Shown here in pieces: positions 41,085-57,043 of a stretch of DNA of 64,000 bases; the stretch's first letter is position 1, and each line of letters begins with the position of its first letter. The DNA comes from a bacterium SCSIO 12643. Lineage in GTDB: Bacteria > Bacteroidota > Bacteroidia > Flavobacteriales_G > Salibacteraceae. The notes below the pieces were generated by a model, which did no database searches, was not told the origin of the DNA, and saw nothing but the letters and a program-made list of their open reading frames with translations. A program made the translations under genes and the position numbers. The DNA lies in assembly GCA_024398135.1 (NCBI GenBank), contig CP073750.1, positions 1 to 64,000 on the forward strand, given 5' to 3'.

Positions 41085-41158
41085 GGTCCGGTAGTTCAGT
41101 TGGTTAGAATATCTGCCTGTCACGCAGGGGGTCGCGGGTTCGAGTCCCGTCCGGACCG
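41085..41158 (+). tRNA. tRNA-Asp (GTC), copy A
   Basis: 74 nt without encoded CCA. Acceptor strands GGTCCGG and CCGGACC pair, with discriminator G. D-arm GTTCAGTTGGTTAGAAT; anticodon stem CTGCC/GGCAG-type around loop TGTCACG with anticodon GTC; T-arm GCGGGTTCGAGTCCCGT. It heads GIY-YIG array A. A 127-bp segment including it and its upstream region (41032-41158) recurs at 55103-55229 with one mismatch. Confidence 0.97.
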
Positions 41159-41162
41159 CTTA

Positions 41163-41191
41163 AAGGTTTACAATTTTGTAAGCCTTTTTTT
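41163..41191 (+). terminator. Type I terminator after tRNA-Asp A, before GIY-YIG A1
   Basis: Stem AAGGTTTAC / GTAAGCCTT at 41163-41186 with a T run, immediately after the tRNA and 14 bp before the GIY-YIG ATG. The same hairpin occurs before GIY-YIG A2 (about 41634-41662) and B3 (about 55948-55977). Confidence 0.85.
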
Positions 41192-41204
41192 ATACCCTAA
41201 TATC

Positions 41205-41462
41205 ATGAATTATTACGTTTATATCATTCGAAGTATTTCGACAGGAAAGTTTTATAAAGGTTATTCCTTATCCCCTTATAATCGTCTTAAACAACATAAT
41301 AATGGAGAAAGTAGATATACTCAACATTTTTGTCCTTGGGAACTGGTTTTTATTCAGTCTTTTGATTCTAAAACTGAAGCTTTGAAAAGAGAAAAAGTTC
41401 TTAAGAAATATTCAAAGAAACAAATTGATAATCTTATTAAATCTCCTCTAAACGAGATCTAG
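41205..41462 (+). CDS. GIY-YIG nuclease, unit A1
   Basis: 85 aa. The GIY-YIG fold is shown by YVYIIRS (GIY-equivalent) and FYKGYS (YIG-equivalent), Arg in YNRLKQHN, and the catalytic Glu in TEALKREKVLKKYSKKQ; RYTQHFCPWELVF is the middle segment of the small UPF0213/YhbQ-like group. Such nucleases cut DNA; the exact role of this clade is unknown. The frame is open back through the tRNA, but that part (ISACHAGGRGFESRPDR) is just translated tRNA; the ATG after the terminator is the real start. The stop TAG belongs to the copied tRNA D-arm sequence. Confidence 0.9.
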   Translation: MNYYVYIIRSISTGKFYKGYSLSPYNRLKQHNNGESRYTQHFCPWELVFIQSFDSKTEALKREKVLKKYSKKQIDNLIKSPLNEI

Positions 41463-41519
41463 AATATCTGCCTGTCATCCCCAAAGCTTTGGGGACGGGT
41501 TCGAGTCCCGTCCGGACCG
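41460..41519 (+). repeat. tRNA-Asp 3'-half copy with palindrome (A1 tail)
   Basis: Begins TAGAATATCTGCCTGTC as in the tRNA (41105-41121), then has the perfect palindrome TCCCCAAAGCTTTGGGGA in place of the anticodon 3' stem and variable loop, then the intact T-arm and 3' acceptor strand. It cannot form a tRNA because the 5' acceptor and D stem are missing. Confidence 0.9.
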
Positions 41520-41530
41520 CTTAAAATTAG

Positions 41531-41563
41531 AAGAGTTTCATTAATAAATGAGACTCTTTTTTT
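41531..41563 (+). terminator. Type III terminator downstream of GIY-YIG unit A1
   Basis: Stem AAGAGTTTCATT / AAATGAGACTCTT with a T run. The same hairpin follows the tRNA tails at about 42005, 43468, 56317 and 56787. Confidence 0.85.
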
Positions 41564-41595
41564 ATGCCATAAACTTTGATAGGACGAGAAGTATA

Positions 41596-41632
41596 TGCTG
41601 AGCGAAGTCGAAGCAAGTCCCGTCCGGACCGC
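41596..41632 (+). repeat. REP-like palindrome fused to tRNA-Asp 3' tail (A, first)
   Basis: Imperfect palindrome TGCTGAGCGAAGTCGAAGCA (41596-41615) followed directly by the last 17 nt of the tRNA copy, AGTCCCGTCCGGACCGC. Other copies are at 43532, 56382 and 56851. Confidence 0.85.
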
Positions 41633-41678
41633 TTAAAGGTTTACAGTTTTGTAAGCCTTTTTTTATGCCCTAAAAATC

Positions 41679-41936
41679 ATGAAACATTACGTTTATATTA
41701 TTCGAAGTATCTCAACAGGAAAGTTCTATAAAGGCTATTCCTTATCCCCTTATGATCGTCTTAAACAGCATAATAATGGAGAAAGTAGATATACTCAACA
41801 TTTTTGCCCCTGGGAACTTTTATATCTCCAGTCTTTCACTTCTAAAACTGAAGCCTTGAAAAGAGAAAAAGTTCTTAAAAAATATTCAAAGGAACAAATT
41901 GTAAATCTGATTAAATCTCCACTAAACGAAATCTAG
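41679..41936 (+). CDS. GIY-YIG nuclease, unit A2
   Basis: 85 aa, close paralogue of unit A1 with the same catalytic features (YVYIIRS, FYKGYS, YDRLKQHN, TEALKREKVLKKYSKEQ). It differs mainly in ELLYLQSFTSKTEAL. It is preceded by the type I terminator hairpin and followed by a tRNA-Asp 3' half that supplies its TAG stop. Upstream lie the type III terminator and a REP-like palindrome. Like the others it has no obvious promoter of its own. Confidence 0.9.
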   Translation: MKHYVYIIRSISTGKFYKGYSLSPYDRLKQHNNGESRYTQHFCPWELLYLQSFTSKTEALKREKVLKKYSKEQIVNLIKSPLNEI

Positions 41937-41994
41937 AATACCTGCCTGTCATCCCCAAAGCTTTGGGGACGGGTTCGAGTCCCGTCCGGAACGC
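41934..41994 (+). repeat. tRNA-Asp 3'-half copy with palindrome (A2 tail)
   Basis: Same structure as the A1 tail, with palindrome TCCCCAAAGCTTTGGGGA, but slightly decayed: ATACCTGCC in the anticodon stem and GGAACGC at the acceptor end. It is followed by the type III hairpin and a damaged REP tail (42058-42083, GTATAGTCTGTCCGGACCGC). Confidence 0.88.
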
Positions 41995-42127
41995 TTAAAA
42001 TTAGAAGAGTTTCATTAATAAATGAGACTCTTTTTTTATGCCATAAACTTTGATAGGACGAGAAGTATAGTCTGTCCGGACCGCAAAGCTCAGCATAACG
42101 TTGGGCTTTTTTTTATGCCCTAAATTC

Positions 42128-42247
42128 ATGAATCATTACGTTTACATCATTCAAAGCATCTCAACCGGGAAGTTTTATAACGGTTATTCATTATCCTCCT
42201 TATTTTGGTATCAAAAACTTCCCTACTTCACTGATCCAAATCAATAA
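42128..42247 (+). pseudogene. GIY-YIG unit A3, truncated 5' part
   Basis: Starts after a type II terminator with MNHYVYIIQSISTGKFYNGYSLS, as in the intact copies, then homology stops near 42208 and an unrelated sequence leads to a stop at 42245. The YIG-region lysine is changed (FYNGYS). The missing 3' part of a GIY-YIG gene reappears at 43280, so this gene was interrupted, with loss of its middle. Confidence 0.85.
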
Positions 42248-42264
42248 TTTATAAATTCGCTTCA

Positions 42265-42768
42265 ATGAAAACCAAGTTAAAGTCTAACATATCCAATTTA
42301 ATTGCTAGAAGCATTGTTTCACTATTTATCTACGGTCTAACTGTTTTAATCATATTAGATTCGAAAATGCTAATGTCTCAAGACGTGAGCTCCATTTCTA
42401 TGTATGTCTTCTTATTTGGCGCAAATGCTCTAATCTATTGGTATGGGTACAAAGAACCTAACATAATCAAATTTAAAAATGAGAGTCTAATCTTTTATAG
42501 TATTCCACTTATTATTCCCAGAACAATTCACAAAACTGAGATTTCGGGTTTTTCGCTATCCACAAGAACTTATCGTACCGGAAAAGCCAAATCATATATT
42601 CTGTATTTAAAATCAGGAAAAAAAATATTCATCGTAGATTACCACTTTAACAATTTTGACTTAATTCAAAGAACTTTTAAAAAACATGGAGTTAGATTCT
42701 TCGGAAAAGAGCAGGAAAGATATCGTTGGTTATTAAAAAGGAAGTTTAAATACGATATATCGGAATAA
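42265..42768 (+). CDS. Hypothetical membrane protein with PH-like domain
   Basis: 167 aa. Two N-terminal membrane helices (IVSLFIYGLTVLIILDS, MYVFLFGANALIYWYGY) are followed by a soluble beta-rich part (SLIFYSIPLIIPRTIHKTEI, AKSYILYLKSGKKIFIVDY) that resembles bacterial PH domains. I do not recognise a specific family. It lies in the DNA that interrupts GIY-YIG gene A3. The origin of this gene is unknown; no second copy is in the window. Confidence 0.6.
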   Translation: MKTKLKSNISNLIARSIVSLFIYGLTVLIILDSKMLMSQDVSSISMYVFLFGANALIYWYGYKEPNIIKFKNESLIFYSIPLIIPRTIHKTEISGFSLSTRTYRTGKAKSYILYLKSGKKIFIVDYHFNNFDLIQRTFKKHGVRFFGKEQERYRWLLKRKFKYDISE

Positions 42769-42907
42769 ATCTATACTAAGTAAACAGTGAAAAACTATCA
42801 AAGACATATCTCTAGTTTTTTAATCAGTTTGATTTTCGCTGTATTGGCAGGTAAATCATAAGCCTGGTCATCTAATAATAGAACTAACAAATAAATAAGA
42901 AGACCAA

Positions 42908-43222
42908 ATGAAAATCAAATGTGCGTGTGACAACCTGATCATAGATCAAACCGATTATCTCAGTAATAAAGGGTATTTAATATCAGATCTTGATTGGTTT
43001 AACTTTTGGGATTCTATCGATGAAGCTATTGAAAATACAGATAAAACACCTAAAGAAAGAGAAGCGATGTGCATGCAGCTAAGAAAACAACGCATTTTCA
43101 AAACTCTTTGGGAATGTGATCGTTGTGGAAATTTATTTGTGAATGGAGATGATGGTAACCTGGTAATTTATATTCCTGATAATAAAAACTATAATCAAGT
43201 TCTAAATAAACCATCAAAATAA
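42908..43222 (+). CDS. Hypothetical zinc-ribbon-like protein (intact copy)
   Basis: 104 aa. A CAC motif at 5-7 and WECDRCGNLF near 71-80 suggest a CxC...CxxC zinc ribbon. A nearly identical but frameshifted copy is at 46152. Over the first ~145 nt the two copies differ by only five substitutions and one inserted A; the second half is more diverged. The ~18 bp before the ATG also match. Beyond the stop, the copy continues into the last codons of the hxlR gene that follows the other copy. This one therefore appears to be a captured duplicate inside GIY-YIG array A. Function unknown. Confidence 0.7.
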   Translation: MKIKCACDNLIIDQTDYLSNKGYLISDLDWFNFWDSIDEAIENTDKTPKEREAMCMQLRKQRIFKTLWECDRCGNLFVNGDDGNLVIYIPDNKNYNQVLNKPSK

Positions 43223-43236
43223 CCTGCTAACAACTT

Positions 43237-43279
43237 TCCCTACTCTTTTAAAGCCATCAACAACTCCGAATAATATTTT
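43237..43279 (-). pseudogene. 3'-terminal fragment of an hxlR gene
   Basis: Matches the end of the HxlR regulator gene at 46477 (reverse-strand codons for SESLMALK). The stop codon is lost (GAG instead of TAG). The fragment ends exactly where the GIY-YIG 3' piece begins. Confidence 0.75.
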
Positions 43280-43399
43280 TCCTGGGAACTTTTTCTTTTG
43301 ACTCTTAAACAAAAGCTTTGAAAAGAGAAAAAGTTCTTAAAAAATATTCAAAAGCAACAAATTACAAACCTGATTAAATCTCCACTAAACGAAATCTAG
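43280..43399 (+). pseudogene. GIY-YIG unit A3, 3' part
   Basis: Begins at the codons for PWEL and runs to the TAG stop in the tRNA tail, with homology to the last ~40 codons of intact copies. Small indels break the frame (CCTGGGAACTTTTTCTTTTG). With the 5' part at 42128 it marks an interrupted nuclease gene. Confidence 0.82.
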
Positions 43400-43457
43400 A
43401 ATATCTGCCTGTCATCCTCAAGGCTTTGGGGACGGGTTCGAGTCCCGTCCGGACCGC
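43397..43457 (+). repeat. tRNA-Asp 3'-half copy with palindrome (A3 tail)
   Basis: Same as the A1 tail except that the palindrome reads TCCTCAAGGCTTTGGGGA, with two changes that weaken the stem. T-arm and acceptor strand are intact. Confidence 0.88.
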
Positions 43458-43531
43458 TTAAAATTAGAAGAGTTTCATTAATAAATGAGACTCTTTTTTT
43501 TGCCATAAACTTTGATAGGACGAGAAGTATA

Positions 43532-43567
43532 TGCTGAGCGAAGTCGAAGCAAGTCTATCCGGACCGC
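43532..43567 (+). repeat. REP-like palindrome fused to decayed tRNA tail (A, last)
   Basis: TGCTGAGCGAAGTCGAAGCA at 43532-43551, then AGTCTATCCGGACCGC, a slightly altered tRNA 3' end. A type II hairpin (about 43568-43592) follows, but no GIY-YIG gene; the array ends here at about 43605. Confidence 0.85.
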
Positions 43568-43694
43568 AAAGCTCAGCATAACGTTGGGCTTTTTTTATGC
43601 CCTAAATTCATTAGATAAAAAATGTTATTTAAATAAATCGAAGTACTACCAAAGTACTAAATTTGATAGCTATAATCGTAAAATTGCAATAGTT

Positions 43695-44294
43695 ATGACT
43701 ATTCCCCAAAAAATATCTAAAACACAAATTAACCAAATCAAAAACAAGCCAAATGAAAGCGGTTTAGTTTTTGACAAGTACGGAAAATCCCAAAACATAA
43801 ATGATTATTCGGATAGAGAGATTTCTGAAATGGCACTTGGAATTTATAAGTATTCAAAAAATATTTTGGTAGACGGAGATTATTTTGTTGATTTAAATAA
43901 AGTGATAAATACGAAATGTCAATTAGAGGAAGTAACTTACTATAAAAAACCTACACTAGAGGATTTTAAAACCAATGCTCACAATAGTATAGGTAATATA
44001 AGAACCTTTTATATTAAAGACTATTTTCTAATAACCGAAGACGAGATTTTTGGGTTAAAAGAACACAGAATTACAAAATACCTATTTAAAATAGGGTTCC
44101 TCAAAAATGGACGGAATAAATTTCGTGGGCTTTACAGCATCTCTAATGATTATAAAACTTTAATACTGGAGAAATATCCAAAGGACTTATTTCATCCCAT
44201 AAAAAAATACATCAACGGACTTTTTTTCCTCGATGAGTATTACATTTCTAATTTTGTTGTTGAAAGTAAAATAAACATTCACAAAGGAAAATAG
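43695..44294 (+). CDS. Hypothetical protein
   Basis: 199 aa from ATG 43695 (TIPQKISKTQINQIKNK). The frame is open from 43512, but that part translates the REP palindrome and terminator and is not real coding sequence. Soluble, lysine/tyrosine-rich, no membrane segment and no motif that I recognise. It lies immediately outside array A, so it may be accessory. Confidence 0.55.
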   Translation: MTIPQKISKTQINQIKNKPNESGLVFDKYGKSQNINDYSDREISEMALGIYKYSKNILVDGDYFVDLNKVINTKCQLEEVTYYKKPTLEDFKTNAHNSIGNIRTFYIKDYFLITEDEIFGLKEHRITKYLFKIGFLKNGRNKFRGLYSISNDYKTLILEKYPKDLFHPIKKYINGLFFLDEYYISNFVVESKINIHKGK

Positions 44295-44411
44295 AACTGT
44301 TAATTTGTTTTATTCATTTCTCTAATAATTTTTATTGTTGATAAAAATGCCTTGAACTCTTTAATAATAAGCCTTAAACCAACCTTTAACTAACACAATA
44401 ATTAAAATTAT

Positions 44412-44723
44412 ATGATTCTTAGTGAAGGAGTATTTTTAGTCAGCCTATTGGGCATTCAATTCATTTTATATTTTCTCTTAACTTTTAAAATTATTAATTG
44501 GGCTGTCGGGAAAAAGACCATATTTATTATTGCAGTTACTCTTTGCATAATTGCTCCTTGGTTATATCCCGGTCAAGGAGGCTTAAATGAAGAAACAGGA
44601 GAATATATCTGCGGGCTAGCTAGTTTCTTACCAGTTTTAATCTTCTGGTTTATAGGAAATATTGTAAATGTGATTCTTATTTTATTTTTTTCTGGAATAG
44701 ATTGGTTTAGGAATTATAAATGA
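44412..44723 (+). CDS. Small hypothetical membrane protein
   Basis: 103 aa, about three membrane helices (VFLVSLLGIQFILYFLL, FIIAVTLCIIAPWLYPG, FLPVLIFWFIGNIVNVIL) with a GGLNEETGEYICG loop between helices 2 and 3. Its stop overlaps the start of the next gene (ATGA). I do not recognise a family. Confidence 0.6.
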   Translation: MILSEGVFLVSLLGIQFILYFLLTFKIINWAVGKKTIFIIAVTLCIIAPWLYPGQGGLNEETGEYICGLASFLPVLIFWFIGNIVNVILILFFSGIDWFRNYK

Positions 44724-45106
44724 AAATTCAATTTAAAATAGTTTTATTGGGGTTAATCAATTCTATTTTGAGTTGGATCATTGCCTCTATAATAAACGCC
44801 CATGATCATGCGGGTATTCACAGCACCGGAATGGTTTCTCTAATAGCAATGCTTACTGCTATTGCTATTTTTATTCTAAACGTATCTTACCTGATTGGTT
44901 GGATAGTGAAGAATAGAATTATTATTTTTATTGCTTGCCTCCTACCCTCTACTATAGTTATGATTATGCTTTTAAAAATTTATTACGCTGATCCATCTGA
45001 TGAAGTTATTAGAATTGTTCTATCAACTGTAGTTATAAATCTCTTATTAAGTCTTTGGCCAGCATATTGGATGGTAAAACTTAAATTCAATGATTCAACT
45101 TTATGA
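44720..45106 (+). CDS. Small hypothetical membrane protein
   Basis: 128 aa, four hydrophobic segments (VLLGLINSILSWIIASI, MVSLIAMLTAIAIFILNV, IIIFIACLLPSTIVMIM, VINLLLSLWPAYWMVKL) and a histidine-containing first loop (NAHDHAGIHSTG). Starts within the previous stop codon, so translation is probably coupled. No family recognised. Confidence 0.6.
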   Translation: MKIQFKIVLLGLINSILSWIIASIINAHDHAGIHSTGMVSLIAMLTAIAIFILNVSYLIGWIVKNRIIIFIACLLPSTIVMIMLLKIYYADPSDEVIRIVLSTVVINLLLSLWPAYWMVKLKFNDSTL

Positions 45107-45136
45107 TAATTCTATTAACATAATTCAGAAAATAAA

Positions 45137-45589
45137 ATGATAATATTAAACGTAAGTTTCGGAATTTATGCTTTTCTTCCTCAAGGTTGGATATTCATGA
45201 CTTCAATTATTCTAATAGAATGTTTAGGTTTCAGCTATCTCTTGACAGGAAAATGGATAAACGATAAGGCTTATCTGACAATTATTATTTCGAATTTAAT
45301 CAGTGGTATTATCGGAATAATTAGCTCAATGATATTAAACGGAGGATGGTGGTTAACCATATGGTTTCCATGGGTAGGCTCCAATGAAGTTAAAGGAATA
45401 GAAGGATTTAAATGGTTTACTATATACTATGTTATTGCGTTTGTTTTGACTATAATTATTGAAGGTGTTATTAATTATTTGATGTTAAAAAAGAGACATA
45501 CCAAATCACAAATTCTAAAAAAAACATTTGTAGTGAATAGTATTAGCTACTTATTGGGGAGTTTCGTAATGTATTCTTATAGTTTCTAA
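45137..45589 (+). CDS. Hypothetical membrane protein
   Basis: 150 aa, four predicted helices; the first loop-helix (FGIYAFLPQGWIFMTSIIL) and the GGWWLTIWFPWVGSNE stretch are notable for aromatic residues. The general layout resembles other small polytopic proteins of Bacteroidota, but I cannot name a family. It follows the two small membrane genes by 30 bp and precedes the GNAT gene by 10 bp. Confidence 0.6.
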   Translation: MIILNVSFGIYAFLPQGWIFMTSIILIECLGFSYLLTGKWINDKAYLTIIISNLISGIIGIISSMILNGGWWLTIWFPWVGSNEVKGIEGFKWFTIYYVIAFVLTIIIEGVINYLMLKKRHTKSQILKKTFVVNSISYLLGSFVMYSYSF

Positions 45590-45599
45590 AACAAGGTAT

Positions 45600-46091
45600 A
45601 TGATTCAGTTAAGAACAGCCTCAATAGATGATCTAGAACTCTTAAAGTACTGGGATACTAAGCAACACGTGATAGATTGTGATCCGGATGATGACTGGAA
45701 CTGGGAAACTGAATTGAATAGAAATCCTGAATGGAGACAACAATATGTAGCTGAACTCAATAACCGACCAATTGGATTTATTCAAATCATTGATCCATAT
45801 CTCGAAGAAACAAAATATTGGGATAACGTATCTCCCAATAAAAGAGTTATTGATATTTGGATTGGTGAGGAATCAGACTTAAACAAAGGTTATGGAACTG
45901 AAATAATGCGTTTAACAATCGAAAAGTGCTTTTCAGAATCTAACGTATCCGGTATATTAATTGATCCATTAAAAACAAATACAAAAGCGCATAGATTCTA
46001 TAAAAGACTAGGATTTGAATTTATCGAAGAACGACAGTTTGACGGAGTTGATTGTTACGTTTTTGAGTTAAAAAAATTGTATAGACTTTAA
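45600..46091 (+). CDS. GNAT family acetyltransferase (AAC(6')-like group)
   Basis: 163 aa. IQLRTASIDDLELLKYWD at the start, GFIQIIDPY in the core, the acetyl-CoA site DLNKGYGTEIMRLTIEKCF, and the C-terminal NTKAHRFYKRLGFEFIEERQF are typical of the GNAT branch that includes aminoglycoside 6'-acetyltransferases and RimJ/RimL-like enzymes. A resistance role is possible but not supported by anything specific. It is in the accessory region between the two tRNA-Asp arrays. Confidence 0.85.
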   Translation: MIQLRTASIDDLELLKYWDTKQHVIDCDPDDDWNWETELNRNPEWRQQYVAELNNRPIGFIQIIDPYLEETKYWDNVSPNKRVIDIWIGEESDLNKGYGTEIMRLTIEKCFSESNVSGILIDPLKTNTKAHRFYKRLGFEFIEERQFDGVDCYVFELKKLYRL

Positions 46092-46151
46092 GTCGGGAGC
46101 ACTGGCTCTAATATTAATAAAATAGAAATAGCTTATAAATAAGAAGACCAA

Positions 46152-46467
46152 ATGAAAATCAAATGTGTGTGTGACAACCTGATCATTGATCAAACCGATT
46201 ATCTCAGTAATAAAGGGTATTTAATATCAGATCTTGATTGGTTTAACTTTTGGGATTCCATCGATGAAGCTATTGAAAGTACAAATAAAAACACCTAAAG
46301 AAAGAGAAGCTATTTGTATGCAGTTAAGAAAGCAACGCTTTTTCAAAACTATTTGGGAATGTGATCATTATGGAAATTTATTTGTGAATGGAGATAATGA
46401 TGATTTGGCACTATACATTCCTAATAATAGAAATTATAATCAAATTCTAAATAAACCATCGAAATAA
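46152..46467 (+). pseudogene. Frameshifted copy of the zinc-ribbon-like gene
   Basis: Copy of the gene at 42908. An extra A in the run at 46287-46291 shifts the frame and gives a stop at 46296. The second cysteine of the CxxC pair is also lost (WECDHYGNLF instead of WECDRCGNLF). It lies directly beside hxlR, the likely original location. Confidence 0.85.
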
Positions 46468-46476
46468 CTTTCCCCA

Positions 46477-46821
46477 CTACTTTAAGGCCATCAACGACTC
46501 TGAATAATATTTCCCCCAGTTGGATATACTTTCTATAACCGGGTTTAGACTTTTACCCACCTCGGTTAATGAATATTCCACTTTTGGAGGAACCGTGGCA
46601 TAGGCTTTTCGAGTAATAATTTTCTTTTCTTCCAGATGCTTTAATTCCTTCACCAACATTCGGGTAGAAATATCAGGAATGGCGCGTTCTAACTCTTTGA
46701 AACGTAACGTTCCTTTATCCAAAAGCACATACAATATGGCAAACTTCCACTTCCCTTCCAGAGTATTCATTGCCAAGTGAAAAGGACAGTTTAAATATTC
46801 TTCTAAAGTTTTTTCTCTCAT
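46477..46821 (-). CDS. HxlR-family transcriptional regulator
   Basis: 114 aa, single winged-helix: NCPFHLAMNTLEGKWKFAIL, FKELERAIPDISTRMLVKEL (recognition helix) and the wing VPPKVEYSLTEVGKSL. The Cys at the start of the domain is often a redox or electrophile sensor in this family. It is divergent from the SnoaL/SDR pair, a very common arrangement, and probably represses it. Confidence 0.93.
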   Translation of the reverse strand: MREKTLEEYLNCPFHLAMNTLEGKWKFAILYVLLDKGTLRFKELERAIPDISTRMLVKELKHLEEKKIITRKAYATVPPKVEYSLTEVGKSLNPVIESISNWGKYYSESLMALK

Positions 46822-46939
46822 AGTCTATTGATTATCAACAATACTCACAAAAATGTTATTACTTCCCATTCATGTAACTACTTTCAAAAGTAAAGTTAAG
46901 CATCTAGGTTTGCGGTATAAATCTTAAAAAAAACTCATC

Positions 46940-47467
46940 ATGAACATTCAGAAAATATTCAAATCCTCATTTATTGGAATTCTATTTATTTCCACCGTTT
47001 CAAGCTGTAATCAAACTACTCACAAAGAAGCAAATACTACAACACCAAATACACCAACTCCACTTGAAGTAAACATCGAAACGAATAAAAAAGTTGTTGC
47101 TGAATTTGTTGAAGCCATGAGAACTTCAAACGTAGCCAAATTAAAAACGATGATTACTGATGATTTTAGTTGGTGGATCATCGGAAAACCCGAATATTTA
47201 GCTACAGCCGGAGAACACGACTCTAAATACTTCCTGGGATTTTTCAAAGGAACCGAATTATTTCCTGAGGGTGCAGATTTTAAAACGACTTCAATGATTG
47301 CTGAAGGAAATACAGTAGCTGCTGAAGCAGAATTCAAAGCCAAAACCGCCATGGGTTCCTATTACGAAAATTACTATCATTTTATTTTTGTAGTTGAAGA
47401 TGGAAAAATCAAAAGGATGAAAGAATATATGGACACCTACCACGCAAAAATGACATTTGGACTCTAA
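46940..47467 (+). CDS. SnoaL/NTF2-like lipoprotein
   Basis: 175 aa. Lipobox FISTVSSCNQT, a threonine/proline linker, then a cone-shaped NTF2-like domain (KKVVAEFVEAMRTSNVAKLK, DFSWWIIG, YYENYYHFIFVVEDGKIKRMKEYMDT). Such domains bind or convert small molecules. It is divergent from hxlR and 10 bp from the SDR gene, suggesting a small-molecule defence or modification pair. Substrate unknown. Confidence 0.82.
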   Translation: MNIQKIFKSSFIGILFISTVSSCNQTTHKEANTTTPNTPTPLEVNIETNKKVVAEFVEAMRTSNVAKLKTMITDDFSWWIIGKPEYLATAGEHDSKYFLGFFKGTELFPEGADFKTTSMIAEGNTVAAEAEFKAKTAMGSYYENYYHFIFVVEDGKIKRMKEYMDTYHAKMTFGL

Positions 47468-47477
47468 TAATCTTATC

Positions 47478-48362
47478 ATGAACTGGACACCACAAGACAT
47501 AAAAGATCTAGACGGAAAAACAATTCTGGTCACCGGAGCCAATACCGGACTGGGATATGAAACTGCATTAGAATTGGCCAGAAAGAATGCTTTGGTCATA
47601 TTGGCCGGACGAAATACCGATAAAATTAATCAAGCAATATCTAATATTAAGTCAGAGATTCCACACGCAAACCTCGAAGCCGGAGTCGTTGATCTGGCTG
47701 ATTTAGACTCTGTCTCCACATTCGCTGAATCGATTGTGAAAAAACATAACCGCCTGGATGTTTTAATTAATAATGCTGGAATTATGTTTCCACCTCCAGG
47801 ACGCACCAAACAAGGATTTGAATCTCAATTTGGAGTAAACTACATTGCCACTTTCCTACTCACTTATAAACTCATGGAATTACTTCAAAAAACACCACAA
47901 AGTCGCGTGGTTACCTTAAGTAGTATTGCCCATAGAAATGGAACGATTGACTTTGCTAATCTAAAATTGGAAAAGCCATTTGATAAGTTTAGAGAATATG
48001 GACAAAGCAAAGTAGCGGATTTAATATTCACATTAGAATTACAAAGAAGACTGGTTAAAAACAATATCGACTGCATTTCAGTTGGGTGTCATCCCGGAAT
48101 TAGTAAAACCGAATTATTAAGAACGGATAAACCGGAAATGATCAATGAATTTCCTCATATGAGTGCGAATCAGGGAGCCTACTCTAGTTTATATGCCGCC
48201 ACAGAAAATATTAAAGGCGGAAATTATATCGGTCCGGACGGAGATGGAGAAATTACCGGTTATCCGGCTCCTGCTGCAATTTCAGAATATGCACAAAACG
48301 AAGAAATTGCGACTCAACTTTGGATTTATACAGAAAAGGAGCTCAATATTAAGTTCTTATAA
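47478..48362 (+). CDS. Short-chain dehydrogenase/reductase
   Basis: 294 aa from ATG 47478 (MNWTPQDIKDLDGKT). Rossmann motif LVTGANTGLG near residues 19-27, LINNAGIMFPPPG, and the catalytic pair in YGQSK. It uses NAD(P)H on small carbonyl or hydroxyl substrates and resembles the retinol-dehydrogenase-like/oxidoreductase group. HxlR regulators adjacent to such SDRs usually control them. The substrate is unknown. Confidence 0.92.
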   Translation: MNWTPQDIKDLDGKTILVTGANTGLGYETALELARKNALVILAGRNTDKINQAISNIKSEIPHANLEAGVVDLADLDSVSTFAESIVKKHNRLDVLINNAGIMFPPPGRTKQGFESQFGVNYIATFLLTYKLMELLQKTPQSRVVTLSSIAHRNGTIDFANLKLEKPFDKFREYGQSKVADLIFTLELQRRLVKNNIDCISVGCHPGISKTELLRTDKPEMINEFPHMSANQGAYSSLYAATENIKGGNYIGPDGDGEITGYPAPAAISEYAQNEEIATQLWIYTEKELNIKFL

Positions 48363-51142: not shown

Positions 51143-51351
51143 AGAGTTTTATTTTTTGACGCATCTTTTAAAAAATTGGTTGTATCAATTATCTAACTTT
51201 ACGAATTGTGATGCTTCTCAATACTACAACTGTTTTAATAATTTCGCAATAAATTATTCCATGGCATTACATATAATTAGACATTACGCTTTAAATCTCC
51301 TTGTCAGATTTCAAGGGATATCTTTTATTTGGAGGTAAATTACCAGAATAA

Positions 51352-52089
51352 ATGCCGGCACCTGAACACACCGATAATTGTAACCACTGTCAAAACAAAC
51401 TCATCGGTGATTTTTGTTCTAATTGCGGACGTCCAAGAGAACTTCAACGTATAGATCATCAATACGTCCTAACTGAAATTGGGAGCATTTTAAACTTCGA
51501 TAAAGGGATTTTATTTACTATTCGCGAACTTCTACTCCGACCTGGATCAAATATCAGAAAATTCCTTCGGGAAGATCGAAATCGTTTGGTTAAACCCATT
51601 ATATTTCTAATTATTTCCTCATTGATTTATAGTATTAGCATCAAATTAACGGGAATTAAAGATGGGTACATTAATTTTAACTCTTACGATTGGGAAGACT
51701 CTGTTTTAGTGGTAATATTTCAATGGATATCAAACAATTATGGCTATGCCAATATCCTAATTGCAGTGTTCATTGCACTTTGGATTAAGATCCTCTTTAA
51801 GAAGTATGCTTATAATTTCTACGAAATCTTTATCCTCCTCATCTTTATCATGGGGATGGTAATGCTTTTTTACAGTTTTTTTAGTATTCTCGAAGGACTT
51901 ACCGGTATAAAAATATTGCAAATTGGTGTGGATTTAGCTTTTCTATATGGTGCCTGGGCCATTGGACAGTTTTTTGACTCATCCAAACATATCAATTACC
52001 TCAAAGCACTCATATCTTACATGCTGGGCTTTATTTCATTCGTCATCGCCATATTAATTGTAGGAATAACTATCGATTTGTTTATCTAA
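51352..52089 (+). CDS. DUF3667 membrane protein
   Basis: 245 aa. N-terminal zinc ribbon CNHCQNKLIGDFCSNCGRP, then the conserved DUF3667 stretch (DHQYVLTEIGSILNFDKGIL, RELLLRPGSNIRKFL, NRLVKPIIFLIISSL) and about five membrane helices. Family function is unknown; it is widespread in Bacteroidota. Transcribed divergently from the beta-helix protein gene. Confidence 0.88.
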   Translation: MPAPEHTDNCNHCQNKLIGDFCSNCGRPRELQRIDHQYVLTEIGSILNFDKGILFTIRELLLRPGSNIRKFLREDRNRLVKPIIFLIISSLIYSISIKLTGIKDGYINFNSYDWEDSVLVVIFQWISNNYGYANILIAVFIALWIKILFKKYAYNFYEIFILLIFIMGMVMLFYSFFSILEGLTGIKILQIGVDLAFLYGAWAIGQFFDSSKHINYLKALISYMLGFISFVIAILIVGITIDLFI

Positions 52090-52166
52090 TCGGTCTAAAT
52101 CCCCTGGCTGGACCTCCCTTTTATTTATTTCAAAAAGTATTACTTTCAGCGCCTCTATAGAACCAA

Positions 52167-53213
52167 ATGAACATAGCAATAATAAATGATATCGGTAAAA
52201 TCACAGTCTTTTTGCTTGTGTTGCTTTCGGGCTTCTTAATCACGGCAAAATCCAAACGAAAACTACCCAATTATCTGTTTGCAGCTTTTCTTTTGGTGAC
52301 CTCCATAGATTTAACCGGGCTGTTCATGCCTCTTGCAGAAAACAACTACATTCGAGGGTTTAAAGTTGCGAGTGTTTTACTTCAGATGCCTCTATATTTC
52401 TTATATGTCCGCGCTGTATGTTATTACAATTTCAAGCTTCATAAAAAGCATATTTTACACACTGTTTTATTCTTTGGATTTCTTTTACTTTTTATCATTG
52501 AAAATGAAATTGAAGCGTATTTTGAAACATTCCAAACCATCTCTAAGCTACAATACTATGGTTATATTATAGGCATTTTTTATACACTTTATAATTTCAA
52601 AAAGGTCTACCAGGAAAACTATTCTAATAACTATAATCTCATATACAAATGGCTATTACAAACGACTATTCTATTTTTAATAGGAAACAGTTTCGTAACG
52701 ATCAGAGAATTGATATCAGAAAACTCTCCCTTTTTGATCAACCTAAACTTTTTTATTAGTCTATTCGCTTTAGGTGTTATCAGTTGGTTTGTACTCAAAG
52801 CACTGTATCAGCCTGTATTGTTTGTTGGAATTGATATGGAAATCAATCCAACTAGACCTGCACCATCCACATCTCAAAACGAACCTGAGGAGCTTCAACA
52901 ACTTTTGGTTTATATGCAAACAGAAAAGCCTTATTTGGATGATCAACTGACTTTACGAAAACTGGCGCTCGGTGTTGATTTCTCCGAAAAAGAATTATCT
53001 CAGTTGATTAACCAACATACCGGTAAACACTTTTTTGATTACGTCAATGCATTTAGAATCCAGGAAGCACAAAAACTTTTAGTGGAATCTTCCAAACTTA
53101 CAGTACTCGAAATCTTATATCAGGTAGGTTTTAATTCAAAATCATCCTTCTATACAGCATTTAAAAAAGAAACCGGACAGACTCCTACAGAATTCAGAAA
53201 ATCAAACATTTAA
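52167..53213 (+). CDS. AraC-family regulator with membrane sensor domain
   Basis: 348 aa. About seven N-terminal membrane helices (residues 8-215) are followed by a cytoplasmic linker and a C-terminal AraC DNA-binding domain (TLRKLALGVDFSEKELSQLI, FDYVNAFRIQEAQKLL, LYQVGFNSKSSFYTAFKKET). Regulators with this design sense signals in or through the membrane. It is 118 bp upstream of the serine hydrolase gene, a plausible target. Confidence 0.9.
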   Translation: MNIAIINDIGKITVFLLVLLSGFLITAKSKRKLPNYLFAAFLLVTSIDLTGLFMPLAENNYIRGFKVASVLLQMPLYFLYVRAVCYYNFKLHKKHILHTVLFFGFLLLFIIENEIEAYFETFQTISKLQYYGYIIGIFYTLYNFKKVYQENYSNNYNLIYKWLLQTTILFLIGNSFVTIRELISENSPFLINLNFFISLFALGVISWFVLKALYQPVLFVGIDMEINPTRPAPSTSQNEPEELQQLLVYMQTEKPYLDDQLTLRKLALGVDFSEKELSQLINQHTGKHFFDYVNAFRIQEAQKLLVESSKLTVLEILYQVGFNSKSSFYTAFKKETGQTPTEFRKSNI

Positions 53214-53331
53214 ACTGAGTCCGACTAAAAATCGAACTCAAATCCCACCATGAATCAGTTCGATTTTCGATAGTCGGACGTTTAACACCCGCTCTCCTTT
53301 CACATTTGCGTCAAACCAAATTTTGATACAA

Positions 53332-54981
53332 ATGAAATACTACATTCAAATGGCATGGACCCTTTTACTAGTTAGTCTTACCATCACAGGTCAATCTCAA
53401 AAAACTTTACAACAACAAGCAGATAGTTTGTTTTATCTCGAACAACAACATCAAGGTCCGGGAGTAGCAATATCCGTAAATCAAAACGGAAAAATGCTTT
53501 ACGAAAACCAAATGGGTTATGCGCATCTCGAACACCGAATTCCCATTTCTGATTCCTCCGTTTTTTTGGTAGGATCTATTTCCAAACAATTCACCACTTT
53601 CAGTATTCTACTTCTTGAAAGCGAAGGTAAACTCTCTGTTGACGATCCCATTATCAAATATCTCCCTGAACTTTCTGCTATAGAAAGTAAGATGACCATT
53701 CGACATCTGGCCAATCATACCAGTGGGTTTAGGAACAACTATGATCTGAACTATCTGAGAGGTTTTTCGGATGAAGACTTAATGAGTCAGTCGAAAATGG
53801 TGGTCCTTTTACTTCAACAAACAGGAGTCAATTTCACACCTGGAGAAAGATTCCAATATTGCAATGCAGGTTATACATTGCTTGCTGAAATTGTCAGTAG
53901 AGTTTCCGGAGTATCCTTTTCTGACTTTGTACAAACTAATATATTTCAACCCTTAGAAATGCATAATAGTCAGTTTCTGGAAGACCCAACACATTTGATT
54001 ATGAATAAAGTAAATTCATATTATTTAAGCGAAGACGGTTATCATTATTACCCAATGAATAGAACAGTTGTTGGTTCTACCGGATTATATACCACTACAG
54101 AGGATTTAATAAAGTGGCACAGAAATTTTTCTCACTTCAAAGTTGGTGATCCTAACATGTTTTCCAAAATGATCGCTCCCGGTAAGTTAAACTCCGGAAA
54201 ACAAATTCCATACGGTTTAGGGTTAGAAACAAAAACATATCGGGGCGTACAAGTCATTTTTCATGGCGGTGGTGATGCCGGATTCAGAGCCTTTCTCCTA
54301 TCTGTTCCACAATATAATTTCACAGTAGCAATCACTGGTAATTTTGAATCCTTTAATCCTTTAAACATAGCTTATGGAATGATCGATATTTTTTTAAATA
54401 ATGAACTTATTCCTACTCCACCTTCAGCTCCTCCGGTTATTCCTAAGAAACAACTTCAGAAATTTAGTGGTACATATCAGATCTTTCCGGGATTCTATAT
54501 CCGGATTATAGCTAAAAATGATTCTCTTTATTTCCAACCCTATGGAGCAACAACCGAACTTGCCTTACCCGTTATTTCTTCAAATGAATTTCTTTTTCCG
54601 GATCGACCACATAGCAAGATCGTATTTACGTCTGAAGGTCTTAGATGGCATTTTTCGGACTTCTCCTACCCCGGTAAAAAAGTACGTCTCGATCCTCCCA
54701 AATATCATGACATCGAGATAAATCAGTTTCTGGGTTCTTTTTACAGTGCTGAATTAGAAACGATCTACACCTTCGTCCAGCAAAATGGAAAAATTATCGC
54801 AACACATCCAATCAATGATGATATTGAACTTCATCCTATTGATGAAGATGCATTTATCACCAACACTTCTTTTTTAGGGCGTGTTACATTTATTCGAGAT
54901 CAAAGTAAAAGGATTATTGGTTGCAAAATCAGTGGGCAAACCGCATATAACATCTACTTTAAAAAGCTAAATTGCGACTAA
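53332..54981 (+). CDS. Serine hydrolase of the beta-lactamase/PBP fold
   Basis: About 549 aa from ATG 53332 with a signal peptide (MAWTLLLVSLTITGQS). The catalytic SxxK is SISK in LVGSISKQFT, YxN is YCNAG, and HGGGDAGF stands for the KTG/HxG box of class C-like enzymes. A C-terminal ~200-residue beta domain follows (FSGTYQIFPGFYIRII, FLGSFYSAELETIYTF). Family members are esterases, peptidases or D-aminopeptidases; the substrate is not predictable. An upstream TTG is in frame but less likely. Confidence 0.9.
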   Translation: MKYYIQMAWTLLLVSLTITGQSQKTLQQQADSLFYLEQQHQGPGVAISVNQNGKMLYENQMGYAHLEHRIPISDSSVFLVGSISKQFTTFSILLLESEGKLSVDDPIIKYLPELSAIESKMTIRHLANHTSGFRNNYDLNYLRGFSDEDLMSQSKMVVLLLQQTGVNFTPGERFQYCNAGYTLLAEIVSRVSGVSFSDFVQTNIFQPLEMHNSQFLEDPTHLIMNKVNSYYLSEDGYHYYPMNRTVVGSTGLYTTTEDLIKWHRNFSHFKVGDPNMFSKMIAPGKLNSGKQIPYGLGLETKTYRGVQVIFHGGGDAGFRAFLLSVPQYNFTVAITGNFESFNPLNIAYGMIDIFLNNELIPTPPSAPPVIPKKQLQKFSGTYQIFPGFYIRIIAKNDSLYFQPYGATTELALPVISSNEFLFPDRPHSKIVFTSEGLRWHFSDFSYPGKKVRLDPPKYHDIEINQFLGSFYSAELETIYTFVQQNGKIIATHPINDDIELHPIDEDAFITNTSFLGRVTFIRDQSKRIIGCKISGQTAYNIYFKKLNCD

Positions 54982-55101
54982 ATCTATCTAAATTCATATC
55001 GCTCTCATTTTTATTTAATTTTTCACAATCTGATAATAAAGAGGTTATGTTTTTATTCTAAAATATTTGATTTTTCTAGCTTTCAGATTAAAAATTAATA
55101 C

Positions 55102-55109
55102 TACTTTTG
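55102..55109 (+). promoter_or_regulatory. -7 element of tRNA-Asp copy B
   Basis: TACTTTTG, the same element as before copy A (41031), and same distance from the tRNA. Confidence 0.6.
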
Positions 55110-55155
55110 GCGCACCAAATCGGAAACGATTAAGGGAACAGTCGAAAGACATGTT

Positions 55156-55229
55156 GGTCCGGTAGTTCAGTTGGTTAGAATATCTGCCTGTCACGCAGGG
55201 GGTCGCGGGTTCGAGTCCCGTCCGGACCG
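55156..55229 (+). tRNA. tRNA-Asp (GTC), copy B
   Basis: Identical to copy A over the full 74 nt: acceptor GGTCCGG/CCGGACC, anticodon loop TGTCACG with GTC, T-arm GCGGGTTCGAGTCCCGT, discriminator G, no encoded CCA. It heads GIY-YIG array B and marks the right direct repeat of a 14-kb interval. Confidence 0.97.
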
Positions 55230-55231
55230 CA

Positions 55232-55259
55232 AAGCTCAACATAACGTTGGGCTTTTTTT
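55232..55259 (+). terminator. Type II terminator after tRNA-Asp B, before GIY-YIG B1
   Basis: Stem AAGCTCAAC / GTTGGGCTT (one U-G pair) with a T run, directly after the tRNA and 13 bp before the GIY-YIG ATG. Copies precede A3 (42084), B2 (55590) and B4 (56419), and stand at the ends of both arrays (about 43568 and 56888). Confidence 0.85.
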
Positions 55260-55272
55260 ATGCCCTAAATTC

Positions 55273-55530
55273 ATGAATCATTACGTTTACATCATTCAAA
55301 GTATCTTAACTGGGAAGTTTTATAAAGGCTATTCATTATCCCCTTATGATCGTCTTAAACAACATAATAATGGAGAAAGTAGATATACTCAACATTTTTG
55401 TCCCTGGGAACTTGTGTTTATTCAATCTTTTGATTCTAAAACAAAAGCCTTGATAAGAGAAAAAGTTCTTAAAAAATATTCAAAGCAACAAATTGCAAAT
55501 CTTATTAAATCTCCTCTAAACGAAATCTAG
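55273..55530 (+). CDS. GIY-YIG nuclease, unit B1
   Basis: 85 aa, same family as the array A copies: YVYIIQS, FYKGYS, YDRLKQHN, RYTQHFCPWELVF. The motif that carries the catalytic Glu in other copies reads KALIREKVLKKYSKQQ, so the first of the two acidic residues (TEALKRE) is Lys, but RE is kept. Identical to B2. The TAG stop belongs to the copied tRNA segment. The reading frame extends back through the tRNA but that part is not coding. Confidence 0.9.
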   Translation: MNHYVYIIQSILTGKFYKGYSLSPYDRLKQHNNGESRYTQHFCPWELVFIQSFDSKTKALIREKVLKKYSKQQIANLIKSPLNEI

Positions 55531-55588
55531 AATATCCGCCTGTCATCCCCAAAGCTTTGGGGACGGGTTCGAGTCCCGTCCGGACCGC
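55528..55588 (+). repeat. tRNA-Asp 3'-half copy with palindrome (B1 tail)
   Basis: TAGAATATCCGCCTGTCA, palindrome TCCCCAAAGCTTTGGGGA, then T-arm and acceptor strand. ATCCGCC differs from the tRNA's ATCTGCC by one base, shared only with B2. Confidence 0.9.
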
Positions 55589-55630
55589 AAAGCTCAACAT
55601 AACGTTGGGCTTTTTTTATGCCCTAAATTC

Positions 55631-55888
55631 ATGAATCATTACGTTTACATCATTCAAAGTATCTTAACTGGGAAGTTTTATAAAGGCTATTCATTATCCC
55701 CTTATGATCGTCTTAAACAACATAATAATGGAGAAAGTAGATATACTCAACATTTTTGTCCCTGGGAACTTGTGTTTATTCAATCTTTTGATTCTAAAAC
55801 AAAAGCCTTGATAAGAGAAAAAGTTCTTAAAAAATATTCAAAGCAACAAATTGCAAATCTTATTAAATCTCCTCTAAACGAAATCTAG
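55631..55888 (+). CDS. GIY-YIG nuclease, unit B2
   Basis: 85 aa, identical to B1 at protein level and, as far as I can align by eye, identical over the whole 358-bp unit including the upstream hairpin and downstream tRNA half. This is a recent exact tandem duplication. Catalytic features as in B1. Confidence 0.9.
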   Translation: MNHYVYIIQSILTGKFYKGYSLSPYDRLKQHNNGESRYTQHFCPWELVFIQSFDSKTKALIREKVLKKYSKQQIANLIKSPLNEI

Positions 55889-55946
55889 AATATCCGCCTG
55901 TCATCCCCAAAGCTTTGGGGACGGGTTCGAGTCCCGTCCGGACCGC
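55886..55946 (+). repeat. tRNA-Asp 3'-half copy with palindrome (B2 tail)
   Basis: Identical to the B1 tail, but followed by the type I hairpin instead of type II. Confidence 0.9.
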
Positions 55947-55991
55947 TTAAAGGTTTACAGTTTTGTAAGCCTTTTTTTATGCCCTAAAATC

Positions 55992-56330
55992 ATGAGACAT
56001 TACGTTTATATCATTCAAAGTATCTCAACCGGAAAGTTTTATAAAGGTTATTCCTTATCTCCATATGATCGTCTTAAACAACACAATAATGAAGAAAGTA
56101 GATATACTCAACATTTTTGTCCATGGGAACTGGTATATATTCAGTCTTTTGATTCTAAAACTGAAGCTTTGAAAAGAGAAAAAGCTCTTAAGAAATATTC
56201 AAAAAAACAAATTGCTAATCTTATGAAATCTTCATTAACGAGATTTAGAATATCTGCCTGTCATCCCCAAGGCTTTGGGGACGGGTTCGAGTTCCGTCCG
56301 GACCGCTTAAAATTAAAAGAGTTTCATTAA
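55992..56330 (+). CDS. GIY-YIG nuclease, unit B3, C-terminal frameshift
   Basis: Residues 1-~80 match the family (YVYIIQS, FYKGYS, YDRLKQHNNEESRYT, TEALKREKALKKYSKKQ). A one-base deletion in the last codons (TCATTAACGAG versus TCTAAACGAG-type in the others) moves the TAG of the tRNA segment out of frame. The protein then reads through the tRNA half and ends 112 residues long with RISACHPQGFGDG, translated tRNA sequence. The catalytic core is intact, so it could still be active. Confidence 0.82.
   Translation: MRHYVYIIQSISTGKFYKGYSLSPYDRLKQHNNEESRYTQHFCPWELVYIQSFDSKTEALKREKALKKYSKKQIANLMKSSLTRFRISACHPQGFGDGFEFRPDRLKLKEFH
56246..56306 (+). repeat. tRNA-Asp 3'-half copy with palindrome (B3 tail)
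   Basis: Palindrome reads TCCCCAAGGCTTTGGGGA (one change), T-arm has GAGTTCCGT (one change). Followed by the type III hairpin. Confidence 0.88.
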
Positions 56331-56381
56331 TAAATGAGACTCTTTTTTTTTGCAATAAACTTTAATAGAACGAGAAGTATA

Positions 56382-56418
56382 TGCTGAGCGAAGTCGAAGC
56401 AAGTCCCGTCCGGACCGC
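56382..56418 (+). repeat. REP-like palindrome fused to tRNA tail (B, first)
   Basis: TGCTGAGCGAAGTCGAAGCA at 56382-56401 followed by AGTCCCGTCCGGACCGC, the exact tRNA 3' end, then a type II hairpin leading into unit B4. Confidence 0.87.
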
Positions 56419-56460
56419 AAAGCTCAACACAGTGTTGGGCTTTTTTTATGCCCTAAATTC

Positions 56461-56718
56461 ATGAATCATTACGTTTACATCATTCAAAGCATTTCAACAG
56501 GAAAGTTTTATAAAGGCTATTCATTAGCCCCTTATGATCGTCTAAAACAGCATAATAATGGAGAAAGTAGATATACTCAACATTTTTGTCCTTGGGAACT
56601 TGTATTTATTCAATCTTTTGATTCTAAAACAAAAGCCTTGATAAGAGAAAAAGTTCTTAAAAAATATTCAAAGCAACAAATTGCAAATCTGATTAAATCT
56701 CCACTAAACGAAATCTAG
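56461..56718 (+). CDS. GIY-YIG nuclease, unit B4
   Basis: 85 aa, like B1/B2 except SISTGKF and SLAPYDRLKQHN. Intact catalytic features (YVYIIQS, FYKGYS, Arg of YDRLKQHN, REKVLKKYSKQQ). Type II hairpin upstream, tRNA 3' half downstream supplying its TAG stop. Confidence 0.9.
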   Translation: MNHYVYIIQSISTGKFYKGYSLAPYDRLKQHNNGESRYTQHFCPWELVFIQSFDSKTKALIREKVLKKYSKQQIANLIKSPLNEI

Positions 56719-56776
56719 AATATCTACCTGTCATCCCCAAAGCTTTGGGGACGGGTTCGAGTCCCGTCCGGACCGC
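56716..56776 (+). repeat. tRNA-Asp 3'-half copy with palindrome (B4 tail)
   Basis: TAGAATATCTACCTGTCA, then palindrome TCCCCAAAGCTTTGGGGA, T-arm and acceptor strand intact. Confidence 0.9.
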
Positions 56777-56850
56777 TTAAAATTAAAAGAGTTTCATTAA
56801 TAAATGAGACTCTTTTTTTTGCAATAAACTTTAATAGGACGAGAAGTATA

Positions 56851-56887
56851 TGCTGAGCGAAGTCGAAGCAAGTCCCGTCCGGACCGC
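56851..56887 (+). repeat. REP-like palindrome fused to tRNA tail (B, last)
   Basis: TGCTGAGCGAAGTCGAAGCA at 56851-56870 followed by AGTCCCGTCCGGACCGC and a final type II hairpin. No nuclease gene follows. Confidence 0.87.
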
Positions 56888-57043
56888 AAAGCTCATCATA
56901 ACGTTGGGCTTTTTTCACCTTAATCCAACCACTTTTCATATTTGCTCCTATCTCCCTAAATTCATATATTAGTTACTGATTTTCAACACCAAAAACTACT
57001 ATATTAATTTCTGGGTCTTTGATCTGATTTTATTACCTATACC

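Follow-up and report, generated by a model that had tools for sequence, protein, structure and literature searches.

Minimal GIY-YIG nuclease genes paired with dead tRNA copies in Bacteroidota: a candidate family of selfish units in structured-RNA genes

Two tRNA-Asp arrays in SCSIO 12643

The window analyzed here, the first 64,000 nt of contig CP073750.1 from bacterium SCSIO 12643, contains two arrays, each headed by an intact tRNA-Asp(gtc) gene, and no further tRNA-Asp gene was found in the 4.12-Mb genome. The repeated GIY-YIG genes and seven tRNA halves that the original prediction had described behind these heads were borne out, comprising six intact ORFs, two remnants, and seven full dead 3' halves, arranged as follows:

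41085–41159 (+): intact tRNA-Asp(gtc) heading array 1
41160–41192 (+): hairpin terminator between tRNA-Asp and the first ORF (GGTTTACAATTTTGTAAGCC plus a T run), read from the sequence
41205–41462 (+): GIY-YIG ORF, 85 aa; its TAG stop is D-loop T21A22G23 of the dead tRNA-Asp half
41460–41520 (+): dead tRNA-Asp 3' half (positions 21–38, palindrome at 41478–41495, positions 51–75)
41615–41632 (+): shorter second tRNA-Asp 3' tail, after a second hairpin and AGGACGAGAAGT...GCTGAGCGAAGTCGAAGC
41679–41936 (+): GIY-YIG ORF, 85 aa
41934–41994 (+): dead tRNA-Asp 3' half, palindrome at 41952–41969
42128–42199 (+): 5' remnant of a GIY-YIG ORF, interrupted
43268–43396 (+): 3' remnant of a GIY-YIG ORF with internal stops, probably from the same copy as 42128–42199
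43397–43457 (+): dead tRNA-Asp 3' half, palindrome at 43415–43432
55156–55230 (+): intact tRNA-Asp(gtc) heading array 2, with 68 nt upstream also common to array 1
55273–55530 (+): GIY-YIG ORF, 85 aa
55528–55588 (+): dead tRNA-Asp 3' half, palindrome at 55546–55563
55631–55888 (+): GIY-YIG ORF, 85 aa, identical to the copy at 55273
55886–55946 (+): dead tRNA-Asp 3' half, palindrome at 55904–55921
55992–56330 (+): GIY-YIG ORF, 112 aa, the open frame continuing through its own dead half
56246–56306 (+): dead tRNA-Asp 3' half, palindrome at 56264–56281
56461–56718 (+): GIY-YIG ORF, 85 aa
56716–56776 (+): dead tRNA-Asp 3' half, palindrome at 56734–56751
56870–56915 (+): final short tRNA tail and terminator (AAAGCTCATCATAACGTTGGGCTTTTTT)

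Each dead half in the window has tRNA positions 39–50 swapped for TCCCCAAAGCTTTGGGGA or a near variant, an 18-bp palindrome, and several units close with a further hairpin and then another, shorter tRNA tail (AAGTCCCGTCCGGACCGC). The repeats, 300-nt copies with 83–100% identity, cannot be the product of chance given their length and number. The two ORF remnants look like a single copy split by about 1.07 kb, and the identical ORFs at 55273 and 55631 indicate that the arrays derive partly from ordinary tandem duplication. A search of this region against Rfam at up to E = 0.1 returned the two tRNAs only, with no intron or other RNA family, and a group I intron was rejected on this result. Group I introns that carry homing endonucleases in tRNA anticodon loops are likewise nuclease-gene parasites of tRNA genes and harmless on insertion; in the units here, however, there is no intron RNA, the intact tRNA is uninterrupted, and harmlessness would come from duplication rather than splicing. 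The absence of tyrosine integrases held up as well, none being encoded in the units or in the neighboring ORFs scanned.

A single-domain nuclease beside tRNA genes across the phylum

The window protein matches the Pfam GIY-YIG family (E = 8.2e-15) and is modeled by AF2 at a pLDDT of 96.4; its catalytic fold spans the whole 85 aa, a separate DNA-binding domain being absent. Residues Y6, Y17, R27, H31, and N32 are invariant, with G19 and E63 near-invariant, and a catalytic domain with conserved active-site residues is a feature shared with free-standing GIY-YIG homing endonucleases. By sequence profile and fold, the nearest small GIY-YIG proteins, and the closest solved folds, are UPF0213 (YhbQ; profile match to structure 1ywl, E = 7.5e-13) and SLX1. 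The latter is a branched-DNA nuclease, larger and acting with its partner SLX4, that comprises a GIY-YIG and a zinc-binding domain; its profile matches the window protein over the catalytic domain only (E about 1e-6), the second domain being absent. At 0.04–0.21, dN/dS among the window copies points to purifying selection on the ORFs; a PADLOC search with the window protein had no hits.

The units are found across Bacteroidota and relatives, beyond the source genome. A strong match was present in 122 of 297 genomes sampled from the phylum, and an intact same-strand tRNA gene adjoined 27 of the 30 best relatives in this sample (binomial chance about 4e-76), the other three being one array interior and two contig ends. 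Under a strict adjacency rule, 148 of 185 loci were beside a tRNA gene, and the exceptions were mostly contig ends, array interiors, near misses, and the control type. As a control, a sister GIY-YIG subfamily of the same phylum (UPF0213-like) was beside tRNAs at 0 of 25 loci; by score and neighborhood the tRNA-linked family appears to be a separate subfamily, despite its profile match to UPF0213. Copies at other tRNA loci, as expected of a mobile element, include one at a tRNA-Met gene in the same genome (position 1,081,521), and nuclease ORFs are hosted by 12 tRNA isotypes when all sets are combined. The copied part is a tRNA 3' half, as originally proposed, in the class A arrangement of tRNA, ORF, and dead 3' half (130 ORFs), but not in its mirror image, class B (20 ORFs), where a dead 5' half lies upstream of the ORF and the intact tRNA downstream. 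Phage and plasmid records held only distant small GIY-YIG matches, outside Bacteroidota, and the IMG/VR viral contigs no real relative, so a phage vehicle is unsupported.

Dead copies, lineages, and empty sites

While the pairing of an ORF with a tRNA half stands, a plain copy of the half does not: it usually carries a palindrome, and the duplicated piece often takes in the tRNA terminator and resembles the local tRNA. Compared with 52 Met tRNAs, the dead half was fitted by none better than by the local tRNA in 55 of 58 loci, in line with the expectation that the copied half matches its neighbor. Of 78 loci, 46 had a terminator after the tRNA and one after the dead half that matched each other better than 99% of cross-locus pairs; in the other 32 the two fell short of this threshold. 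The position of the palindrome within the dead half is lineage-specific, on a map that records perfect palindromes only and is thus by itself no proof of conserved pairing. The unselected frequency of a hairpin after the stop codon is 31 of 46 ORFs, compared with 7% of shuffles. At Met loci the hairpin arms mostly read TCCGCC; compensated variants (TCCGTC, TCCGTT) are few, and covariation is modest. Palindromes number 0–31 per genome and lie mostly inside units in the source genome and in a second genome (G204); being few, mostly within units, and accompanied by a nuclease of GIY-YIG type, they were rejected as genome-wide REP-type palindromes of the REP/RAYT kind.

The 3' half of the intact tRNA is not detectably foreign, which leaves unproven the idea that a unit brings its own 3' end. 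In the chimeric-tRNA comparison, tRNA-Asp of the window genus differs from that of the sister species in its 5' part as well as its 3' part; a second genus was uninformative, its tRNA-Met copies being nearly all identical.

On the protein tree, isotype changes numbered 24 compared with 55 when shuffled (0 of 200 shuffles were as low), and the Met-associated proteins form a single clade. These isotype-specific lineages suggest that a unit usually keeps to one tRNA and rarely jumps to another isotype, a correction to the original interpretation. Both sister species of the window genus have ORF-free tRNA-Asp sites at the orthologous positions, the empty sites that had been sought, and one tRNA-Met locus in another genus occurs in empty, filled, and scar states with shared flanks. 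Such ORF-less target alleles are also a feature of free-standing GIY-YIG homing endonucleases; for the units here they may stem from gain or from loss. A clean tRNA is also what recombination between direct repeats would produce, so the empty sites could reflect precise loss instead of gain; in the tRNA-Met set, the ORFs have diverged about as much as their flanks, which gives no sign of recent transfer. Units at other loci and empty sites were both found, so the outcome named in advance as refuting the mobile-element idea did not materialize, and the earlier interpretation is partly supported. In one genus, the RNase P RNA gene of 3 of 8 congeners has an ORF of the same nuclease family in its P3 loop, without a tRNA part.

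Origin and significance of the units

These sequences are best read as minimal selfish units forming one family, which occupies tRNA genes and on rare occasions other structured-RNA genes; each unit joins a single-domain GIY-YIG gene to a dead part-copy of its host tRNA, in many cases together with the terminator. We consider it probable that they are chromosomal, homing-endonuclease-like parasites spread by nuclease-stimulated recombination between direct repeats, although both cleavage and mobility are what we infer. The nuclease would break or nick the tRNA gene, or hairpins that tRNA-gene DNA can form; homologous recombination with a copy that bears a unit, using the tRNA end and terminator common to both, would then mend the break. 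Repair would insert the ORF, tRNA part, and terminator as a direct repeat and leave one functional tRNA, rendering the insertion harmless. The hairpin may take the place of a segment that the enzyme would cut, or may itself be the structure that it recognizes, and later unequal crossing-over could produce arrays, scars, and clean excisions. Further points weigh against this explanation: a site-specific homing enzyme lacking a DNA-binding domain would be unusual, and, with an intact target tRNA still beside the nuclease gene, self-cleavage must somehow be avoided.

Strong purifying selection, identical adjacent copies, and long isotype-specific lineages would also suit a small, ancient host gene that is not selfish but serves the cell (in tRNA-gene maintenance, hairpin repair, or tRNA dosage) and whose copies arose through ordinary tandem duplication. 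We regard this as unlikely, as presence is patchy at orthologous loci, the protein tree spans many isotypes and changes isotype label at least 24 times, and duplicating one gene explains neither the mirror-image duplications nor the RNase P site. It is quite unlikely that tyrosine integrases with attachment sites at the same tRNA 3' ends move the units in trans as passenger mini-islands, the dead half being attR. An intact tRNA with a 3' fragment at the other end, as in the class A direct repeat, is the classic signature of such elements, and the clean tRNA-Met 3' halves without 5' halves at three loci (L096, L169, and L170) resemble the attR ends expected of larger islands in that tRNA, a simpler reading for which these loci were rejected as transposed units. 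However, the units span only 0.3–0.5 kb with no integrase found, even in the scanned neighbors, the fragment is broken by a palindrome, the duplication extends through the terminator, class B duplicates a 5' half, and the RNase P insertion has no tRNA part. Amplification of tRNA genes on demand, for example against tRNA-cleaving phage defense or toxins, with arrays as by-products, has a precedent in phage T6, where the GIY-YIG enzyme SegB cuts within tRNA genes and drives tandem tRNA-segB amplification (PMC13096335), and would suit the window's tandem arrays, but is very unlikely, as the arrays read amplify mostly dead halves rather than functional tRNAs and IMG/VR phage contigs hold no relatives.

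The selfish units favored here nonetheless share with T4/T6 SegB and other free-standing GIY-YIG homing endonucleases a nuclease gene adjoining tRNA genes. They differ in being chromosomal, with no phage relatives found, in encoding a protein of 80–90 aa with the catalytic domain only, and in pairing the gene with a dead tRNA part and hairpin in isotype-specific lineages. Fungal mitochondrial mobile ORFs bring a replacement gene end (Allomyces atp6; Glomus atp6, atp9, cox2, and nad3), the endonuclease ORF lying between the working chimeric gene and the displaced native end (PMC3630166). There too, a duplicated gene end flanks the nuclease ORF and keeps the insertion harmless; those hosts, however, are mitochondrial protein genes given a foreign C-terminus, whereas the bacterial tRNA genes here have a duplicate end that is local in sequence and palindrome-altered. 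A more specific proposal, which we advance only tentatively, is a new class of mobile unit in which a minimal SLX1-like nuclease recognizes DNA hairpins of structured-RNA genes (tRNA arms, RNase P P3), with the hairpin-bearing dead tRNA part as recombination module and the host gene protected by duplication, not by splicing or site-specific integration. Our literature search found no description of such nuclease-tRNA units.

This looks like an apparently undescribed family of tiny selfish elements that exploit essential RNA genes without destroying them. If so, very many Bacteroidota genomes would harbor an unrecognized tRNA-gene parasite, which would also be a source of tRNA fragments and arrays now misread by genome annotation. 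Besides splicing and integrase-made restoration, it would represent a third way for a host to survive with a nuclease gene lodged in one of its essential RNA genes, the RNase P case placing a protein gene within the P3 loop of a normally essential ribozyme. It would also offer a testable minimal GIY-YIG enzyme, with tRNA-gene sequence or a DNA hairpin as its candidate target.

Architecture of the tRNA-Asp arrays and related units

A genome-wide tRNA search found two tRNA-Asp genes (41085-41159 and 55156-55230), both within the window, and the arrays that the original prediction placed behind them are real. Each consists of the intact tRNA, a hairpin terminator, and repeats of an 85-aa GIY-YIG ORF, a tRNA-Asp 3' half, and a terminator. 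The ORF terminates on the D-loop TAG of the tRNA, which fuses gene and dead (broken) half, and in all window halves the 18-bp palindrome TCCCCAAAGCTTTGGGGA or a close variant takes the place of tRNA positions 39-50. With up to two mismatches, this palindrome occurs at nine sites genome-wide (seven in the arrays, one forming an ordinary terminator, and one alone). Six ORFs are intact, and selection on the copies, which include an identical pair, is seen in dN/dS values of 0.04-0.21 between them. Two ORF remnants look like a single copy split by ~1.07 kb (42200-43267) containing two ORFs of 167 and 104 aa, neither of known family; a shortened second copy of the 104-aa ORF lies at 46121-46468. 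Both tRNA-Asp loci share 143 nt including upstream sequence (41017-41159 and 55088-55230, 97% identity), and the second locus is therefore a segmental duplication; sister species have one such locus each. In the window's tRNA-Asp units, at 41579-41632, 43510-43567, 56370-56418, and 56836-56887, the motif AGGACGAGAAGT or one close to it precedes a palindromic stretch and then a tRNA 3' tail, and these copies contain GCTGAGCGAAGTCGAAGC. The same arrangement occurs at L215:2062, in a tRNA-Met locus of another genus.

Related units fall into two classes. In class A (130 ORFs), the intact tRNA is followed by a terminator, the ORF, typically 30-70 nt off, and a dead 3' half beginning near tRNA position 16-30. 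In class B (20 ORFs), a dead 5' piece (often positions 1-22) precedes the ORF and the intact tRNA follows it; the ORF often ends on the TAG of tRNA positions 8-10 or within the D-loop. A GC-rich hairpin lies within 75 nt past 31 of 46 class A ORFs, compared with 7% of shuffles; intact tRNAs score in 21 of 77 cases, through their own stems. The tRNA segment exchanged for the hairpin depends on the lineage:

tRNA positions replaced by the hairpin
Met: 38-47
Asn: 24-33
Asp of the window type: 39-50
Other Asp: 52-59
Ala, Val, Pro, and Gly: about 27-45 (the whole anticodon arm)
Phe: 10-25
Arg: pure insertion at 22/23

Hairpin loops in the Met set measure 2 to 4 nt, a variation that would be easier to reconcile with a hairpin than with a rigid two-site operator. 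Tandem ORF-less, hairpin-bearing tRNA-Met copies (positions 1-57 to 1-66, spaced about 100-120 bp) occur upstream of intact tRNA-Met at L154, L160, and L168.

Distribution and isotype lineages

Matches were found in 197 of 297 genomes of the phylum sample at E<=1e-3, and in 122 at E<=1e-18. An intact same-strand tRNA adjoins 27 of the 30 best phylum loci, the remainder being one array interior and two contig ends, and a strict adjacency rule held at 148 of 185 loci, the others being mostly contig ends, array interiors, near misses, or the control subfamily. Of 25 UPF0213/YhbQ-like GIY-YIG genes taken from this phylum as a control, none lies beside a tRNA. Distant relatives in the same GTDB family mostly adjoin tRNA genes of other isotypes, and one in the window's own genome adjoins tRNA-Met; the isotypes adjoined comprise Met, Asn, Asp, Arg, Ser, Pro, Val, Ala, Leu, Phe, Cys, and Gly. 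A scan for the Met type (one genome for each of 84,980 species) gave 143 confirmed matches, the best 80 of which belong to Bacteroidota and relatives (Balneolota, Ignavibacteria, Cloacimonadota, and Marinimicrobia), besides one MAG labelled Rhizobium. The latter's contig (L196) carries a typical, Bacteroidota-like tRNA-Met and GIY-YIG arrangement, and the MAG is probably mislabelled or contaminated. Viral contigs searched for family relatives gave nothing convincing.

On a tree of 78 proteins (85 columns, many open forks), the isotype labels require 24 changes, whereas shuffled labels require 55 and none of 200 shuffles came as low, and the Met proteins form one clade (98, starred) spanning many families; units therefore stay with their isotype, switching rarely but repeatedly. 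A family ORF lies within the RNase P RNA gene of three out of eight congeners (G088, G197, and G099; loci L256, L255, and L254), where it separates P1/P2 sequence from the remainder. Read against the known class A RNase P RNA layout, the site appears to be the P3 arm/loop, which is short in the other five.

Local duplication and turnover

At 55 of 58 loci, the local tRNA matches the dead half at least as well as any of 52 other Met tRNAs (mean score 27.5 local, 11.9 other). The terminators behind the intact tRNA and dead half match beyond the cross-locus 99th percentile at 46 of 78 loci, some of them arrays; several single units lose identity just past the T run. The duplicated module is therefore the local tRNA part plus terminator, a match that may stem either from duplication at insertion or from later homogenisation.

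The tRNA-Asp orthologue in sister species G001 and G002 shares the upstream gene and has no unit. One tRNA-Met locus of a second genus occurs in three states, filled (L200, L210, and L212), empty (e.g., L201-L203 and L207-L209), and scarred (L205 and L213), with an upstream flank common to all states and a downstream gene common to L207, L208, L209, L213, and L210. These states show turnover without its direction (gain or loss), because direct-repeat recombination would erase a unit cleanly. At L200, the first terminator departs from the native type and is similar to the one in unit L212; the second is native.

Integrase islands are the usual explanation for tRNA fragments (PMC9897764). Clean tRNA-Met 3' halves lacking 5' halves (L096, L169, and L170) and GTAGCAAA-type tails behind tRNA-Met (L204, L211, and L214) suggest such islands at the same tRNA-Met.

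A proposed homing-like mechanism

The solved structures nearest to the window protein (AlphaFold model of 85 residues, pLDDT 96.4) are UPF0213 BH0048 and SLX1, a branched-DNA nuclease, with I-TevI more distant; the protein has no space for a DNA-binding domain. The enzyme would break tRNA-gene DNA, and repair from a unit-bearing copy, via the common tRNA end and terminator, would insert the ORF and dead part while the working tRNA stays. The hairpin may either rid the unit of the cut site or be the structure recognised; structure recognition would fit the single-domain SLX1-like form and the RNase P case, and site specificity the lineage-specific hairpin positions. Arrays and scars may come from unequal crossing-over.

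Among known systems, the phage GIY-YIG enzyme SegB cleaves within tRNA genes, causing tandem tRNA-segB amplification (PMC13096335), fungal mitochondrial mobile ORFs make hybrid genes and displace the native end (PMC3630166), and group I introns use tRNA anticodon loops (PMC3984707). A 2006 GIY-YIG survey does not mention such a tRNA-gene association (PMC1564403), and no description of the present family was found in the literature searched; subscription papers and preprints lay outside its scope, and we therefore make no claim of priority. The mobile element proposed in the original prediction is favoured, short of proof, with the units best read as a homing-like family that spares the host gene in a new way.
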